DNA from: Armatimonadota bacterium
GTDB lineage: Bacteria > Armatimonadota > Fimbriimonadia > Fimbriimonadales > Fimbriimonadaceae
Assembly (NCBI GenBank): GCA_037138755.1
Contig: JBAXHT010000001.1
Span: forward strand, 1,149,805 to 1,213,804
Direction: 5' to 3'
Length of the DNA stretch: 64,000 nucleotides
This document shows, one piece after another, positions 13,519 through 54,374 of this stretch. Made by a program: the position numbers and the translations under genes. The notes under the pieces are model-generated. The model was given only the letters and a program-made list of their open reading frames with translations. It was not told where the DNA came from and ran no database searches. Positions within the stretch are counted from its first letter, which is position 1. Each line of letters starts with the position of its first letter.

Positions 13519-13881
13519 CTAGGCAGCATGTCGATTGATAACTTCTAGTACCTTATCGGCCTGGAAGGGCTTGACGATGAACTCTTTAGCTCCCGCCTGA
13601 AGGGCTTCAACCATTAAATTCTGTTGGCCCATTGCAGAGCACATCACGATTGTCGCGTTTGGGTCGGAAGCGCGGATGGCTTTCAGAGCCTCGATTCCGT
13701 CCATCTCGGGCATGGTGATGTCCATGGTGACCAGGTCTGGTTTGAGATCGTTGTAAAGCGAAACGGACTCAACTCCGTTTGCTGCTTCTCCAACGACTTC
13801 AAATCCGGCATCCGATAGGATGCGCTTGAGAGTGACTCGCATGAACAATGCGTCGTCTGTGATTAAGATGCGTTTAGCCAT
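13519..13881 (-). CDS. cheY: chemotaxis response regulator CheY
   Basis: A stand-alone receiver domain of 120 residues. The acidic pocket is TDD (Asp 9-10), the phospho-acceptor is Asp 54 in TMDITMPEMDG, the conserved Thr/Ser is in IVMCSAMGQ and the Lys is in IVKPFQ. The start was set at the ATG at 13881, because GAGGAG sits 6 nt upstream and the product then begins MAKRILITDD; an earlier in-frame start would add 15 non-conserved residues. It overlaps the end of cheR by 19 nt. Expected to carry the signal to the flagellar motor or another output, with CheX and CheC as phosphatases. Confidence 0.93.
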   Translation of the reverse strand: MAKRILITDDALFMRVTLKRILSDAGFEVVGEAANGVESVSLYNDLKPDLVTMDITMPEMDGIEALKAIRASDPNATIVMCSAMGQQNLMVEALQAGAKEFIVKPFQADKVLEVINRHAA

Positions 13882-14675
13882 TTTTTCTCCTCGCTTGGTT
13901 TCTGATAGAAATACGGTTTCGGACACTCGTAGCCGATTTCCTTTGGATTGAAGATGCGTTCGCTACCCCCGATGAAGAGGTATCCACCAGGTCGCAACGC
14001 ACCGTAGAATCGTCGGAAAATCTGCTCTTTTGCCTCGTCGACAAAGTAGATCAGAACATTCCGACAAACAATAAGGTCGTAGCCCGTGCCATAGCTGTCG
14101 GCAAGAAGGTTATGGCGTTGAAACGTCATGTACTTCTTCAGCTCGTCACTGACTGCGGCCCCCCGTGGCGTCTTGCTGAAGTATTTTTGATACTCCTTCG
14201 GAACGTCACGAAACTCTGTGCCGAACAACACCCCTTCCTGGGCTTGTTGCATTGCCGCGGCATCGATGTCCGTGCAGACAATGCGATGCGGCTTTCGGGG
14301 AGCATGAACGTCGAGGATCGAGGCAAGGCTGTAAGCCTCCGCACCCGTCGAGCATCCGGCACTCCAAACCTTGAGCGGCTTTCCGGCTTTTAACAAATCT
14401 GTTCGCATGAAGTGCTCCAGTTGCACCCAATGTTCCGGATTGCGGAACACTTCGGTGACATTGATCGCCAGGCGATCCAGGAACCATTCTCTTGCTTCTC
14501 GATCTTTGAGCACTAAATCGCAAAGCTCTTCAAAGCTCTTGAGCTTGCGCTGATCGATCAACATCAGCATTCGCCTGGTCAACTGATCTTGCTTGTAGTC
14601 GTTGAAGTTGATCCCTGCGACCGCATTGAAGCGGCGGTAGAAATCTTGAAACTGTTTTTCGTTAGGCTGCTGCAC
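13863..14675 (-). CDS. cheR: chemoreceptor glutamate methyltransferase CheR
   Basis: The 270-residue protein has an N-terminal helical CheR domain and a Rossmann methyltransferase domain with the SAM-binding motif WSAGCSTGAEAYSLA, the acidic SAM ribose contact in IVCTDIDAAAM and the family motif LIVCRNVLIYF. It methylates glutamates on chemoreceptors using S-adenosylmethionine, opposed by CheB. It overlaps cheB by 14 nt upstream and cheY by 19 nt downstream. A likely substrate receptor is encoded at 44619-46955. Confidence 0.95.
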   Translation of the reverse strand: MQQPNEKQFQDFYRRFNAVAGINFNDYKQDQLTRRMLMLIDQRKLKSFEELCDLVLKDREAREWFLDRLAINVTEVFRNPEHWVQLEHFMRTDLLKAGKPLKVWSAGCSTGAEAYSLASILDVHAPRKPHRIVCTDIDAAAMQQAQEGVLFGTEFRDVPKEYQKYFSKTPRGAAVSDELKKYMTFQRHNLLADSYGTGYDLIVCRNVLIYFVDEAKEQIFRRFYGALRPGGYLFIGGSERIFNPKEIGYECPKPYFYQKPSEEKKWLNAS

Positions 14676-15690
14676 GTCTTCCTCCCTGTAGTCCAGCCAC
14701 GATCGCCATGTATAGCTCGTGGGCAGGGAACTCGCCGTCTACTGCTCCAGCTTCTTTAGCCGAGCGCGGCATCCCGTAGACGGTGCAGGTCTCGGCGGAT
14801 TCTCCGAGAATCATGCCGCCCGCCTTCTTGACTGCTTGGGCTCCGGCGGTTCCATCCCGTCCCATCCCGGTCATGATCACGCCGAGCGCCCGATCACCCA
14901 AATACTTTGCACCAGATTCAAACAGGTAGTCAGCGCAAGGCTTCACGCCGAGCCGATCTGGAGCATCGTTAAATTTGAGAGAGCTTTCTGAAGCAAACTC
15001 CAAGTGCATGCCGCCTTGCGCCAGCAGCGCGACTCCCGGTTCCAATTTGTCTCCGTCCTGGGCTTCGCGGACCTTGAATGAACCTGCCCCGTCGAGCCGG
15101 TGCGCCAGACTCTTAGTGAACCCGACAGGCATGTGCTGAACGATGACACATGGCACTCGCATACTCTTCGGTAGCGTTTCAAACAGCGTCATCAACGCCT
15201 TTGGACCGCCAGTCGAGGAAGCAATCAGCAGGACTTTGTTCGACTCAACAGCCTTGAGTTTCGGTGCCGAACCGAGTGGTGCCCGGTTGGACATCTTCGC
15301 CTGTGCTGCGGTGCGGACCTTGGGGATCAACTCCTTAAAGGTCTGATCCATTGACTCGGCGGTGATTTGAGTCGGCTTCGCAATGAAATCAATCGCACCG
15401 ATTTCAAGGGCAGTCATCGTTGCCTTTGTGCCCACGGCGGTTAGCGTCGAACACATGACTACCGGCGTCGGGGCTTCCCGCATCACTTCCTGCAGGGCAA
15501 TCAACCCGTTCTTATTAGGCATTTCGATGTCAAGCGTAATGACATCTGGTTTCAGCAATCGAACATTAGCAAGGACTTCGTCACCACTCGCCGCGGTTCC
15601 CACAACCTCCATATCGCCGGCTTTGTTGATAGCATCGCAAATCACTCGGCGCATGAAGATTGAGTCATCGACAACCAAGACCTTGATCAT
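14662..15690 (-). CDS. cheB: chemotaxis response regulator / protein-glutamate methylesterase CheB
   Basis: A 342-residue protein with a receiver domain (Asp 54 in TLDIEMPNKNG, Lys in IAKPTQ) joined by a linker to a CheB methylesterase domain. The catalytic Ser is in IASSTGGPKAL, the His in IVQHMPVGFT and the Asp in IMTGMGRDGTAG. It demethylates and deamidates chemoreceptors when phosphorylated. It overlaps the HDOD gene by 4 nt (ATGA) and cheR by 14 nt, so translation is probably coupled. Confidence 0.95.
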   Translation of the reverse strand: MIKVLVVDDSIFMRRVICDAINKAGDMEVVGTAASGDEVLANVRLLKPDVITLDIEMPNKNGLIALQEVMREAPTPVVMCSTLTAVGTKATMTALEIGAIDFIAKPTQITAESMDQTFKELIPKVRTAAQAKMSNRAPLGSAPKLKAVESNKVLLIASSTGGPKALMTLFETLPKSMRVPCVIVQHMPVGFTKSLAHRLDGAGSFKVREAQDGDKLEPGVALLAQGGMHLEFASESSLKFNDAPDRLGVKPCADYLFESGAKYLGDRALGVIMTGMGRDGTAGAQAVKKAGGMILGESAETCTVYGMPRSAKEAGAVDGEFPAHELYMAIVAGLQGGRRAAA

Positions 15691-16541
15691 GCTGCTCTCC
15701 TCTCGACACCTTGCAACTCATCGCACTGAGAGATTGCACAATCAAGCATCTCGTTAAGTTCGTCCATCGTCAATCCGACCCGCTCAAACGCCTCTTGATC
15801 TAATTGATAGATCTGACCAAACGCCCCTTCGTTGATGCCTCGCTCCCTAACCATAAAGTCAGCGACGTGGATCAAATCAGCAATCGGATCTGGACATTCA
15901 GGCAAGCTCGGCTGGTGATGAAAACGGATCGCGCTCCCGTAAACCTTCGGCAGATTCCACACGTCGCAGAGTTCGGCTCCGACTTCGGCATGGTCAAACC
16001 CATAAACCTCGCGTTCAATCTCATCCAAGGGGCGTTGCTCCTTCTCGGCTCGGTTGACGAGGGACTCGAATTGACACTCCTTCCACACTGCAAAGACAAC
16101 CGTGCCAAGATCGTGCAACAGTCCGATGCAGAACGGCAATTCGGCGTCTTGCATTTCCTTCTTGGTCGCCATCGACCGCACAAGGTATGCGGTGGTCAGT
16201 GAGTGGTTCCAAAGCAGGGTAGGGCTGATGCCTTTGCCGTTCAAGGCCTTGTGTAACCAAGGAAAGCTTGCTGCCACAAGCGACAAACTCTTGACTGTAC
16301 GCATTCCGAGTACAACCACCGCGTCGGAAATGGATGTCACTTCGCGAGCCATTCCGTAGAAGGCCGAGTTAGCGAGCCGAAGAATTCTCACGGAGAGACT
16401 TGGATCTCGAGCCAAAGTTGCCGCAACGTGAATCGCACTCGAGTCCGCCAAGTCTGCGACTCGCATGACCTCAAATGCAACTTCTGGCATCGATGGCAAC
16501 TCAGTAGTTTGCCGTAGTAATTGATTAAGCTGCGCGGACAT
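15687..16541 (-). CDS. HDOD domain protein
   Basis: The 284-residue protein is mostly a HDOD domain (LPSMPEVAFEVM near residue 15, then ILRLANSAFYG near 55, and LLHDLGTVVF near 150). HDOD proteins lack full HD phosphodiesterase catalysis and often act in signalling or motility regulation. Its position inside the che operon, overlapping cheD by 17 nt and cheB by 4 nt, suggests a role linked to chemotaxis output, but the partner is unknown. Confidence 0.88.
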   Translation of the reverse strand: MSAQLNQLLRQTTELPSMPEVAFEVMRVADLADSSAIHVAATLARDPSLSVRILRLANSAFYGMAREVTSISDAVVVLGMRTVKSLSLVAASFPWLHKALNGKGISPTLLWNHSLTTAYLVRSMATKKEMQDAELPFCIGLLHDLGTVVFAVWKECQFESLVNRAEKEQRPLDEIEREVYGFDHAEVGAELCDVWNLPKVYGSAIRFHHQPSLPECPDPIADLIHVADFMVRERGINEGAFGQIYQLDQEAFERVGLTMDELNEMLDCAISQCDELQGVERRAA

Positions 16542-17094
16542 GTTGACCCTCCCCGAACTTGTGTAGCAAGTTCATCTCCCGAGAACCACATGCCACGAAT
16601 ACCTCCCCTGACCCCAGGCACAATTGCGTGGACGTTGCCTGAGTTCCGCCGATCAGATCGGCTTCAAGGCGGGCATTGTGCTTGGTCAGGTTCTCGTGCA
16701 GAGCTTGGATGTTTCGCTCGCCAATGCTGAGATTCAAGCTAGCAGCTCCTGCGCCGAACTTAAAGACATTTGCGCCGCCTACAGCGACAAACTTGAGTCG
16801 ACTCCGATTCGCTCCGGCGTTGATCAGCTCTTTGATCAAAGCAGGGATCGCCAAGTCCATGTAGCGCCCCGGAAGGTCGAGGTCCTTTCGTCCAGTGCTA
16901 TCTGGCAGCACGACATGTGCAACTCCACCAACGTAACTTAGTGGGTCGTATGCCATGAGTCCGATGCAACTACCCAGGCCATGGCAACCTACCATCGGGG
17001 CCTTTCGCGCGACATATATCTCGCCCAATCGGGCGATCAAAATATCCTTTGTCTCCACTGTTACGCGGCCATCCCTAAGCCGAGGCGATCCCAT
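16525..17094 (-). CDS. cheD: chemoreceptor glutamine deamidase CheD
   Basis: CheD family, 189 residues from the ATG at 17094. The Cys nucleophile is in GLGSCIGLMAYD, the catalytic His in HVVLPDS, and a Gly-rich segment FVAVGGANVF follows. CheD deamidates receptor glutamines and in Bacillus is sequestered by CheC, whose gene lies directly upstream. The ATG overlaps cheC by 34 nt. A GTG at 17058, just after the cheC TAA, would give a product 12 residues shorter that fits the usual N terminus equally well, so the start is uncertain. Confidence 0.92.
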   Translation of the reverse strand: MGSPRLRDGRVTVETKDILIARLGEIYVARKAPMVGCHGLGSCIGLMAYDPLSYVGGVAHVVLPDSTGRKDLDLPGRYMDLAIPALIKELINAGANRSRLKFVAVGGANVFKFGAGAASLNLSIGERNIQALHENLTKHNARLEADLIGGTQATSTQLCLGSGEVFVACGSREMNLLHKFGEGQHVRAA

Positions 17095-17702
17095 AGTAGT
17101 TCGACCGACTCTTGACTCGGGATGAGCAGGAAGCTGCCCTTGACAGCCTCTTGGTCATCCCAGAGCTTAGTTTCGATAAACAGGGCAACTGCCTGCTCCG
17201 ATGCCTCGGCGGCAATCGAGCCAAGGATCGAACCGAATGAATCGACCGCAAGCATCGGTGGCGTAGCGTTGCTAAACAATCCGGTGAAATCTGTAAATGC
17301 GGAAAGGAATGACCCGTTGATGATGTTTCCGACTTCAACGACGGAGCTCCATTCAAGTTCCGTGAGCTCATCGGCAGTCTCTGGTGCGGAGCCGATTAGC
17401 ATTTGCCACAGTGCTTGACAACTTGGCCAGTCGAGGAAAAATGCCATGCGTCCATTGAAGTCGCCGTCCACTGCCATGTAGATCACAGCGTGAGTGTCGT
17501 CAACGTTATCGATCAGCTCGTGAACTCGGTCAAATGTGATCGGGCGAACCTGTGGAACAGAAATCAGGAAGTCTCGTCCGCAGACCGAAGCAAGGGCGCG
17601 TGCGGCGTGCCCCGTACCAATATTGGCAATCTCATTGAGAGCGCTCATGCGCATGTTCTGGTTCTCAATTGCCTGAACAATACTGATCGTGTTATCCGCC
17701 AT
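17061..17702 (-). CDS. cheC: CheY-P phosphatase CheC
   Basis: The 213-residue protein has the two CheC active-site helices: ALNEIANIGTGHAARAL near residues 21-37 and EVGNIINGSFLSAF near 120-133, each with the E..N pair. CheC dephosphorylates CheY-P and binds CheD. It is the first gene of the minus-strand che operon. The ATG at 17702 (MADNTIS) was chosen over an upstream TTG at 17720, which adds six non-conserved residues. It diverges from the acc operon across a 69-nt intergenic region, and no strong -10/-35 pair is visible there. Confidence 0.92.
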   Translation of the reverse strand: MADNTISIVQAIENQNMRMSALNEIANIGTGHAARALASVCGRDFLISVPQVRPITFDRVHELIDNVDDTHAVIYMAVDGDFNGRMAFFLDWPSCQALWQMLIGSAPETADELTELEWSSVVEVGNIINGSFLSAFTDFTGLFSNATPPMLAVDSFGSILGSIAAEASEQAVALFIETKLWDDQEAVKGSFLLIPSQESVELLWDRLGLGMAA

Positions 17703-17771
17703 GCGAAGGTGATTCCACAAAATTACTTGCTAGTAACACAGAATTTTGGGGATTGGTACACTGTTAGGGTT

Positions 17772-18185
17772 ATGTCCGCTATCGACTTCGAACTGGTCCG
17801 GCACGCACTAGATGTTGCTGTGCAAAGCCAGATGAATGAAGTAGAGCTTGAAGTCGGCGCTGCGAAATTTTCCGCAGTGATCGAGAAAAAAGCGGCACCT
17901 AAGGTTGCACCCTCGCAGACCGTCGAAACTGCTGCACCCGCTGTCGTAGAAATTCAACCTTCCAGCAAACCGATCAAGGCAACATCGGTAGGGATATTCA
18001 GAACGGCCAAGGTGCCTTTGATTGCAGGAGCAACCGTCGAGAAGGGCGATGTGATCGGAACGATCTTCGCGCTTGGAATCTCCTCCGAAGTCCACTCTGC
18101 TATTGCCGGAACGATCTCTGACATCCTTGTTGAAGACGGTGACCCCGTCGAATATGGTCAGCCGATCATGGAGATCCTTATATGA
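17772..18185 (+). CDS. AccB-like biotinyl-domain protein without the biotinylation lysine
   Basis: The 137-residue protein has the layout of acetyl-CoA carboxylase BCCP: an N-terminal AccB helix/strand region (FELVRHALDVAVQSQMNEVE), a Pro/Ala-rich linker (~45-70), and a C-terminal barrel (VGIFRTAKVP to PVEYGQPIMEIL). Where BCCP has the E-A-M-K-M tetrad in the hairpin, this protein reads FALGISSEV, so the lysine is replaced by Gly and no Lys occurs in the turn. The pattern resembles the plant BADC proteins, non-biotinylated BCCP homologues that regulate acetyl-CoA carboxylase. It overlaps the following gene by ATGA and sits where accB normally precedes accC. A true AccB would have to be encoded elsewhere. 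Confidence 0.85.
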   Translation: MSAIDFELVRHALDVAVQSQMNEVELEVGAAKFSAVIEKKAAPKVAPSQTVETAAPAVVEIQPSSKPIKATSVGIFRTAKVPLIAGATVEKGDVIGTIFALGISSEVHSAIAGTISDILVEDGDPVEYGQPIMEILI

Positions 18186-18544
18186 GACGCGGCCAGACCC
18201 TCGTTGCGAGCCTCGCCGTCATAGCAATCATCGCGATCCTCGCCGTCGTTATGATGAAAGGTATGGGAGGCGCGGCACCAAAACCTAAAGCTGATGGTCG
18301 AGGAAAAACCGTGATGGGTAACGCGATGGCAACCGCCAATGATTCGGCGTGCCAAAGCAATTTGAGCCAGATGCGGCAGCTGATACAAGTCCAAAAAACC
18401 TCCGATGATGAGTTCAAGCCCACTTCACCCGCCGACATTCCTGGTGCGGCAAGCGTGAGTAAATGCCCGGTCGGCAAGGAAACCTATTTGGTCGACGAGC
18501 AGGGCAACGTCCATTGCCCCCACTTAGGACACGAGAAATACTGA
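18182..18544 (+). CDS. pilin-like single-TM protein between accB-like and accC
   Basis: The 120-residue product begins [20 protein letters not shown], which looks like a class III prepilin leader and hydrophobic N-terminal helix, although the position-5 Glu of mature pilins is Ala here. Residues ~58-120 have a CQSNLSQMRQ segment like secreted prepilin-type proteins of this phylum and end with two Cys motifs (SKCPVGKE and VHCPHLGHE) that could form a disulfide or bind metal. The ATG overlaps the previous stop (ATGA) and the stop overlaps the accC start (TGATG), so the three genes appear translationally coupled. No function is known. Confidence 0.75.
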   Translation: MRRGQTLVASLAVIAIIAILAVVMMKGMGGAAPKPKADGRGKTVMGNAMATANDSACQSNLSQMRQLIQVQKTSDDEFKPTSPADIPGAASVSKCPVGKETYLVDEQGNVHCPHLGHEKY

Positions 18545-19899
18545 TGCTGAAAAAGGTTCTCATTGCAAACCGTGGCGAAATTGCCTGCCGTGCTATCCGC
18601 GCCTGCCGCGAACTGGGTATCGCTTCAGTAGCGATTTACAGCGAGGCAGACCGCGAAAGCCTTCACGTCAAGCTTGCCGACCAAGCCATCTGCGTCGGTG
18701 CCGGAAGCAACGGAGACTCTTATCTCAACCTCGCAAACGTTCTGATGGCTACCCAAATCAGCGGGGCTGAAGCTGTTCACCCTGGCTACGGATACTTCTC
18801 CGAGAGGGCAAACTTCGCGGTTGCACTAGAATCACTTGGAGTTAAGTTCATCGGACCTCCAACCGGAGCAATCGAGGCCATGGGCGACAAAGCCAGTGCC
18901 AAAAAAGCGGCTATCGAAGCCAACTGTCCTGTCGTGCCCGGCTCCGACGGCCCTGTCGCAAACGACAGCGAAGCCATTCAAGTCGCCGAAGAAATCGGCT
19001 ATCCAGTGCTATTGAAGGCTGTCGCGGGTGGCGGCGGTCGGGGCATCCGCCGCGTCAACAACTCCGAGGAACTCAGCGGGCTCTGGAAAATGGCGACCGC
19101 CGAAGCCCAAGCCTCCTTCGGCTCGGGTGAAATGCTGGTCGAAAAATTCGTTCTCAATCCCCGCCACGTCGAAATTCAGGTCTTCGGCGACAGCTATGGA
19201 AACATGGTCTACCTTGGAGAGCGAGAGTGCTCGATACAGAACCTGCGTCACCAGAAGCTCGTCGAAGAAGCCCCCTACGCCGACCTGCCTCCCGAGGTCC
19301 GAAAGAGCATGGGAGAGGCTGCTGTCAGGGTCGCAAGCAGCGTTGGATATCAAAATGCGGGAACAGTTGAGTTCCTTGTCGACACCGATTTCAACTACTA
19401 CTTCTTGGAGATGAACACTCGCCTACAAGTTGAGCACCCCGTGACCGAAGAGATCACTGGAATCGACCTGATGCAACTCATGCTCCGCACCACCAGCGGC
19501 GAAAAGCTCCCTTTCACCCAAGCCGATATCAAGCTAAAAGGTCACGCGATCGAAGCTCGGATCACCGCCCAAGACCCCGACAACGACTTCTCGCCTTCTA
19601 CCGGAAAAATCACTGGCTGGCGCGCGCCAATGGGTCGCGGAGTTCGTATGGAATCCCACTGTTACGCCGGACTGACGGTTACTCCTTTCTATGATCCCCT
19701 CCTCGCCAAACTCATCGTCCGAGGCGAAACCCGAGCAGAGGCAGTGAGCAAACTCCAAGCCGCGCTACATGAATTTGAAGTGGAGGGCATCGCCACGAAT
19801 ATCCCATTCCTGCGTCGGCTAGCGGCCACACCTTCCTATGTCGCGGGTAACTTCGACACGGGATTCGTGCCGAAGTTCCTCGACGGTGAGGCCGTTTGA
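18544..19899 (+). CDS. accC: acetyl-CoA carboxylase biotin carboxylase subunit AccC
   Basis: The 451-residue product matches biotin carboxylase in length and order: the pre-ATP-grasp domain (LIANRGEIACRAIRAC), ATP-grasp with the Gly-rich loop AVAGGGGRGIRRV, the HxEIQVFGD strand, the FLEMNTRLQVEHPVTE catalytic segment, and the C-terminal HAIEARITAQDP region. It carboxylates biotin on BCCP with ATP and bicarbonate in the first step of malonyl-CoA synthesis. The ATG shares one base with the preceding TGA. The upstream BCCP-like protein lacks biotin, so the real carrier must come from another locus. Confidence 0.96.
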   Translation: MLKKVLIANRGEIACRAIRACRELGIASVAIYSEADRESLHVKLADQAICVGAGSNGDSYLNLANVLMATQISGAEAVHPGYGYFSERANFAVALESLGVKFIGPPTGAIEAMGDKASAKKAAIEANCPVVPGSDGPVANDSEAIQVAEEIGYPVLLKAVAGGGGRGIRRVNNSEELSGLWKMATAEAQASFGSGEMLVEKFVLNPRHVEIQVFGDSYGNMVYLGERECSIQNLRHQKLVEEAPYADLPPEVRKSMGEAAVRVASSVGYQNAGTVEFLVDTDFNYYFLEMNTRLQVEHPVTEEITGIDLMQLMLRTTSGEKLPFTQADIKLKGHAIEARITAQDPDNDFSPSTGKITGWRAPMGRGVRMESHCYAGLTVTPFYDPLLAKLIVRGETRAEAVSKLQAALHEFEVEGIATNIPFLRRLAATPSYVAGNFDTGFVPKFLDGEAV

Positions 19900-54234: not shown

Positions 54235-54265
54235 ATTTCGGAAGCCTAAAGAGGCATCCAAATCA

Positions 54266-54359
54266 GCTCACGCATCCCTCCGCTGGTGTTAACCAGATCA
54301 GGTTCAAAGGGTCTGTGGAAACCTCCACACTCTCAGCCACTCAGGCTCCCCTTGCGAGC
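54266..54359 (-). promoter_or_regulatory. TPP (THI element) riboswitch
   Basis: On the minus strand the region carries the conserved THI-element blocks in order: GGGGAGCCTGAGTGGCTGAG, ACCCTTTGAACCTGATCTGG, TTAACACCAGCGGAGGGA, and a closing P1 arm ATGCGTGAGC that pairs with the 5' GCTCGCA. The CTGAGA and CCTGATCTGG boxes are the pyrimidine- and pyrophosphate-sensing cores. The element reads into the prepilin-like gene 70 nt downstream, not into a thiamine gene. Confidence 0.92.
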
Positions 54360-54374
54360 AATTTGTTACACTGG

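Follow-up and report, generated by a model that had tools for sequence, protein, structure and literature searches.

A lysine-less BCCP paralogue in the acc operon of an Armatimonadota bacterium and its counterparts across the phylum

The accB1 locus and its operon

The window, i.e., the whole stretch of 64,000 nucleotides that was analysed, contains at 17772..18185 (+ strand) the gene accB1, which encodes a BCCP paralogue without the biotinyl lysine (137 aa, ATG start, TGA stop). The biotinylation motif is replaced by the turn FALGISSEVHS, encoded at 18066..18098 (+) by ttc gcg ctt gga atc tcc tcc gaa gtc cac tct, in which the Gly codon gga (18075-18077) occupies the position of the biotinyl Lys codon. 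Alignment of the E. coli turn EAMKMMN (in IVEAMKMMNQI) with FALGISS (in IFALGISSEV) puts Gly in the Lys column, and the turn and its adjoining residues contain no other lysine. An earlier note on this DNA had described an AccB here with a BCCP layout and Gly in place of the biotinyl lysine; both the coordinates and the residue turned out to be right. We infer that the protein, AccB-1, itself would carry no biotin.

The BCCP layout was likewise borne out: a linker rich in Pro and Ala leads from an N-terminal helix and hairpin to a C-terminal domain of the biotinyl type. The Pfam Biotin_lipoyl domain is matched at residues 69-135 with an E of 1.7e-9. The NCBIfam BCCP model TIGR00531 is matched at residues 19-135 with 45.7 bits, below its cut-off of 115.2, a failure that on its own is a weak criterion since the true AccB of the same genome also narrowly misses the cut-off with 105.2 bits. 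The AccB/BCCP equivalog TIGR00531 is defined by the lysine of the (E)(A/S)MK turn, the cut-off score and the thumb loop; AccB-1 shows none of these, its thumb loop being shortened by five residues in the alignment of the window protein. An AlphaFold2 model (mean pLDDT 77, about 83-94 in the core blocks) has a helix at residues 6-18, a hairpin at 23-36 and a well-predicted biotinyl-type beta fold. E. coli BCCP (1bdo, 4hr7) and Arabidopsis BCCP1 (9a87) are among its best PDB matches; no chain in the PDB sequence matches of AccB-1 is named BADC.

AccB1 is the first gene of an operon in which it is followed by a gene for a pilin-like small protein (18182..18544, +; 120 aa, type IV pilin-type N-terminus) and by accC (18544..19899, +). 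The ATG of the pilin-like ORF at 18182 overlaps the TGA of accB1 (18183-18185), and its own TGA (18542-18544) overlaps the accC ATG at 18544. The accC product is a bona fide AccC, the biotin carboxylase of acetyl-CoA carboxylase (ACC), which scores 631.6 bits with PRK08591, above the cut-off; AccC relatives of it at 69-80% identity bear the names Armatimonadetes and Fimbriimonadaceae. The proposed coupling of accB1 to accC thus holds as far as the common operon is concerned, but it is not direct, because the overlapping pilin-like gene, which the earlier note overlooked, lies between them.

This intervening gene is kept across Armatimonadota. Its product has a conserved Cys-containing C-terminus ending in CPHxGHEKY (CPHPGHEKY), and the N_methyl motif is clear in the homologues from families f2 and f12 and weak in the window copy. 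In two homologues (L061, L167) a lipoprotein-like signal replaces the pilin segment, so that the conserved part of the protein probably lies outside the cytoplasm. On this account, a function of the pilin-like protein as a membrane anchor of the cytosolic ACC was thought unlikely.

A chemotaxis-type block of CheR-, CheB-, HDOD-, CheD- and CheC-like ORFs, assigned by the appearance of their sequences, is located at 13863-17720 on the - strand of the window, divergent from the accB1 operon, and several related loci show similar neighbours. The window also contains a TPP riboswitch at 54258-54362 (-; 72.9 bits).

A second AccB and other biotin proteins of the genome

The host genome of accB1 (3.27 Mb, 97% complete) contains seven Biotin_lipoyl domains. 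One of them belongs to a second AccB, AccB-2, a protein of 152 aa with the turn LIEAMKVFNEI and a canonical thumb, whose gene lies ~157 kb from accB1 with no other acc genes adjoining it. The suggestion that the real BCCP would be found elsewhere, for which a genome search had been named as the check, was therefore correct (IEAMKVFNE), and the option that the genome has no second AccB is rejected. Another domain is that of an MCC-type carrier (VLEAMKT) adjoining an HMG-CoA lyase-like gene, and the remaining ones, that of the window gene aside, are lipoyl domains of E2-type proteins.

Since the genome encodes, besides this separate VLEAMKT carrier, a second biotin carboxylase that is MccA-like and also an MccB-like transferase, AccB-2 remains available to ACC, and its assignment as an MCC or PCC carrier was rejected. 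The window AccC turned out to be the sole ACC-type biotin carboxylase (BC) retrieved by a family search of the genome; the other proteins of the biotin-carboxylase family that were read are the MccA-like one and one CarB-like one. AccA and accD reside on a contig other than that of accB1, and one protein of the biotin/lipoate-ligase family was found.

Conservation of AccB-1 and repeated loss of the lysine

Within the GTDB family Fimbriimonadaceae, the AccB profile was matched in 84 of 85 genomes. All 80 complete accB1 orthologues of this family, which comprises 32 genera, have Gly at the Lys column, most of them within the pattern [VI]xALG[IL]xN[DE][VI]. A sequencing error hiding the MKM codons, which the earlier note had named as a refuting option, is thereby excluded, as is a mutation of a single strain. 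The pilin-like gene lies 3' of accB1 in 80/80 cases and accC follows on the same strand in 77/80. In two small genomes of the family (G059 and G060; about 1.5 Mb, 97% complete), the AccB-1/AccB-2 match is at E 8.8e-4 and none; these organisms perhaps have no fatty-acid synthesis of their own.

In a 73-row alignment of AccB-1, A16, G74 and G102 (G102 being the residue that replaces Lys) are invariant, and conservation extends to the biotinyl-like core (G74, G102, G113, V126, G129). This bears on the idea that AccB-1, with no need for biotin, autoregulates expression of the accB1-accC operon. For E. coli, autoregulation of accBC by AccB has been proposed although that protein has no DNA-binding motif (PMC11602165), and accB1 heads its operon. 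However, a regulator acting through its N-terminus only would have no need of a conserved core, and Pfam and NCBIfam domain searches found no DNA-binding domain in AccB-1, which makes autoregulation an improbable main function. The dN/dS values of close copy-1 pairs range from 0.04 to 0.31 and are mostly below 0.14. The lysine-less protein is hence maintained by selection, and the assumption that accB1 is a pseudogene was rejected.

The arrangement extends far beyond the locus described in the earlier note: two AccB copies occur phylum-wide, and the accC-linked one has lost the lysine on many independent occasions. The AccB profile was matched in 249 of 255 Armatimonadota genomes, mostly twice per genome. 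Copy 2, surveyed in 59 genomes of 45 families, keeps both the lysine and a thumb of 14 residues in all 59 (the E. coli thumb also has 14). For copy 1, 140 rows were collected in total, and 60 loci were read outside Fimbriimonadaceae. Lysine is present in 21 of these 140 rows, the others having Gly (99), Arg (13), Thr (2), Ser (2), His (2) or Asn (1); the thumb has nine residues or fewer in 116. By family, among the 42 sampled, the copy-1 lysine is lost in 26, kept in 14 and mixed in 2. Because 14 of the 42 families keep it, the accC-linked protein probably still functioned as a carrier in the ancestor, and the role acquired later may differ between lineages.

The same figures concern the possibility that AccB-1 is still a carrier, by way of modification of another residue or another cofactor. 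The fold is intact, but in the window protein neither the turn nor the residues adjoining it include a Lys, and the turn residue varies by family between Gly, Arg, Thr, Ser, His and Asn; we find this explanation barely credible.

When mapped on a tree of the linked AccC proteins (65 sequences), the lysine state changes at least 10 times, or 13 times if only losses are allowed and the root is placed at the midpoint; the exact number is uncertain because many backbone forks of this tree are weak. Well-supported sister pairs with opposite states were found within f21 and between f17 and f18, f38 and f39, and G214 and G216. A tree of both AccB copies, computed with outgroups and with the motif and thumb columns removed, reveals copy 2 as a single clade (SH-aLRT 88) and copy 1 as clustered. 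This fits one old duplication of BCCP, although it falls short of proof, AccB being a short protein.

Many losses of the lysine to different residues would be expected for a redundant carrier function, and the overlaps of accB1, the pilin-like gene and accC could tie the genes together. AccB-1 might then be what remains of the BCCP originally linked to accC, in decay and retained solely through polarity or translational coupling to accC. The lysine-less proteins, however, are under purifying selection (dN/dS well under 1), Gly is invariant in 80/80 orthologues, and the full fold with the N-terminal hairpin is retained across the family; a relic therefore seems very improbable. In family f3 of the same order, three loci (L140, L152, L153) encode a lysine-less AccB with the turn EVLGIPNEV, and neither the pilin-like gene nor accC was found in the stretch around it; the linkage to accC seems to have been lost there and the lysine-less protein retained.

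A possible role of AccB-1 and comparison with other systems

We consider it probable, though far from assured, that the two proteins are products of a duplicated BCCP with divided functions. In this scheme, an old duplication in Armatimonadota would have given rise to AccB-1 and AccB-2. AccB-2, encoded elsewhere and retaining both Lys and thumb, would act as the carrier in catalysis. AccB-1, produced along with AccC, would have kept the N-terminal helix, the hairpin and the carrier fold and lost biotin acceptance in most lineages. It would then be a subunit without catalytic function in the subcomplex of biotin carboxylase and BCCP, one that binds AccC and/or AccB-2, partly via its N-terminal hairpin, as hairpins assemble BC oligomers in other BCCPs, and that thereby sets the assembly or activity of ACC, like plant BADC. 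In Chloroflexus, BC dimers are joined into an active tetramer by the N-terminal hairpin of BCCP rather than by its core, and N-terminal extensions of that kind are widespread among heteromeric BCCPs (PMC11077971). Against this subunit model stand the pilin-like gene of the acc operon, for which it does not account, the copy-1 lysine kept in 14 families and the apparent loss of the accC linkage in f3.

Plant BADC binds both BC and BCCP, aids their assembly and touches the BCCP thumb (PMC11926652); in another account it is described as a modulator of ACC that competes with BCCP for BC (PMC7712654). The earlier note had called the window protein BADC-like, and every feature that can be checked in the sequences agrees. 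Like Arabidopsis BADC1-3, AccB-1 is a BCCP homologue with a biotinyl-type C-terminal domain, has neither the biotinylation motif nor the acceptor lysine, and shares its organism with a BCCP that can be biotinylated; the phenomenon is much wider than was proposed. In the heteromeric ACC of plants, BADC accompanies BC and BCCP as a partner without catalytic function. AccB-1 is known here from its gene linkage to accC, and it is by analogy that we infer its binding to AccC or AccB-2 and a role as glue or modulator. Unlike plant BADC, AccB-1 is bacterial, is encoded in the accC operon, has a shortened thumb and belongs to a copy in which the lysine was lost several times within the phylum. The scatter of these losses within Armatimonadota suggests an origin separate from that of plant BADC. 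With bacterial AccB/BCCP (TIGR00531; E. coli 4hr7, 1bdo), AccB-1 shares the helix, hairpin, linker, biotinyl-type beta fold and accC operon, and it differs in the absent biotinyl lysine, the shortened thumb and the score (45.7 vs. 115.2 bits).

Accessory 'glue' subunits, which are non-catalytic and help to assemble and activate the holoenzyme, are described for some bacterial acyl-CoA carboxylases (PMC11926652). Their likeness to AccB-1 lies in the idea of a non-catalytic assembly subunit. To our knowledge, they are not BCCP homologues.

The competition of plant BADCs with BCCP for BC (PMC7712654) also lends itself to a different emphasis, in which the main function of AccB-1 is inhibition or buffering: it would fill BCCP sites on AccC, compete with AccB-2 and lower ACC flux under certain conditions. 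Being made along with AccC, it would match BC in stoichiometry. Nevertheless, the constitutive linkage to accC and near-universal retention suit a standing subunit more than a conditional brake, and we regard a mainly inhibitory role as unlikely, albeit worth keeping in mind, and give preference to the non-catalytic subunit that sets assembly or activity.

Extended to the phylum, the preferred reading would be that Armatimonadota have a two-BCCP ACC whose accC-linked copy became, through many independent lysine losses, a dedicated non-biotinylated assembly or regulatory subunit in parallel to plant BADC; for this broader statement the chances appear to fall slightly short of even. According to PMC11926652, BADC is unique to the plant enzyme, and the presence in ACC of BCCP relatives that carry no biotin is a feature of plants; Armatimonadota suggest that bacteria evolved such a subunit independently. 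Open-licence full texts yielded no account of a BADC-like AccB from bacteria or of the two-AccB arrangement in Armatimonadota, which is weak evidence. Some families keep the copy-1 lysine and others do not, and the true carrier is there in every case; such families amount to natural replicates, and the disputed role of BADC, glue or brake, is therefore testable in a simpler system. For annotation and metabolic models, an AccB adjoining accC is not safely assumed to be a biotin carrier.

Other phyla served as controls. Among 77 accC loci with an AccB in the named scan, all seven from Armatimonadota are without MK and all 70 others keep it. In the best-scoring matches, the lysine is kept in 33/33 Bacillota-side loci and in 28 of the 30 of the Elusimicrobiota-side set. 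The two exceptions are L354 (EAMRIIKEI, with Arg) and L358 (EAMQVPKDV, with Gln), and accC is present in both loci. Since these two lack the lysine, its loss is not confined to Armatimonadota, though it is far commoner there in the sample. They are possible further independent cases, and the same route may have begun in these accC-linked AccBs outside the phylum. In another locus of the Elusimicrobiota-side set, L339, the turn reads ECMKIPTDV and the lysine is present.
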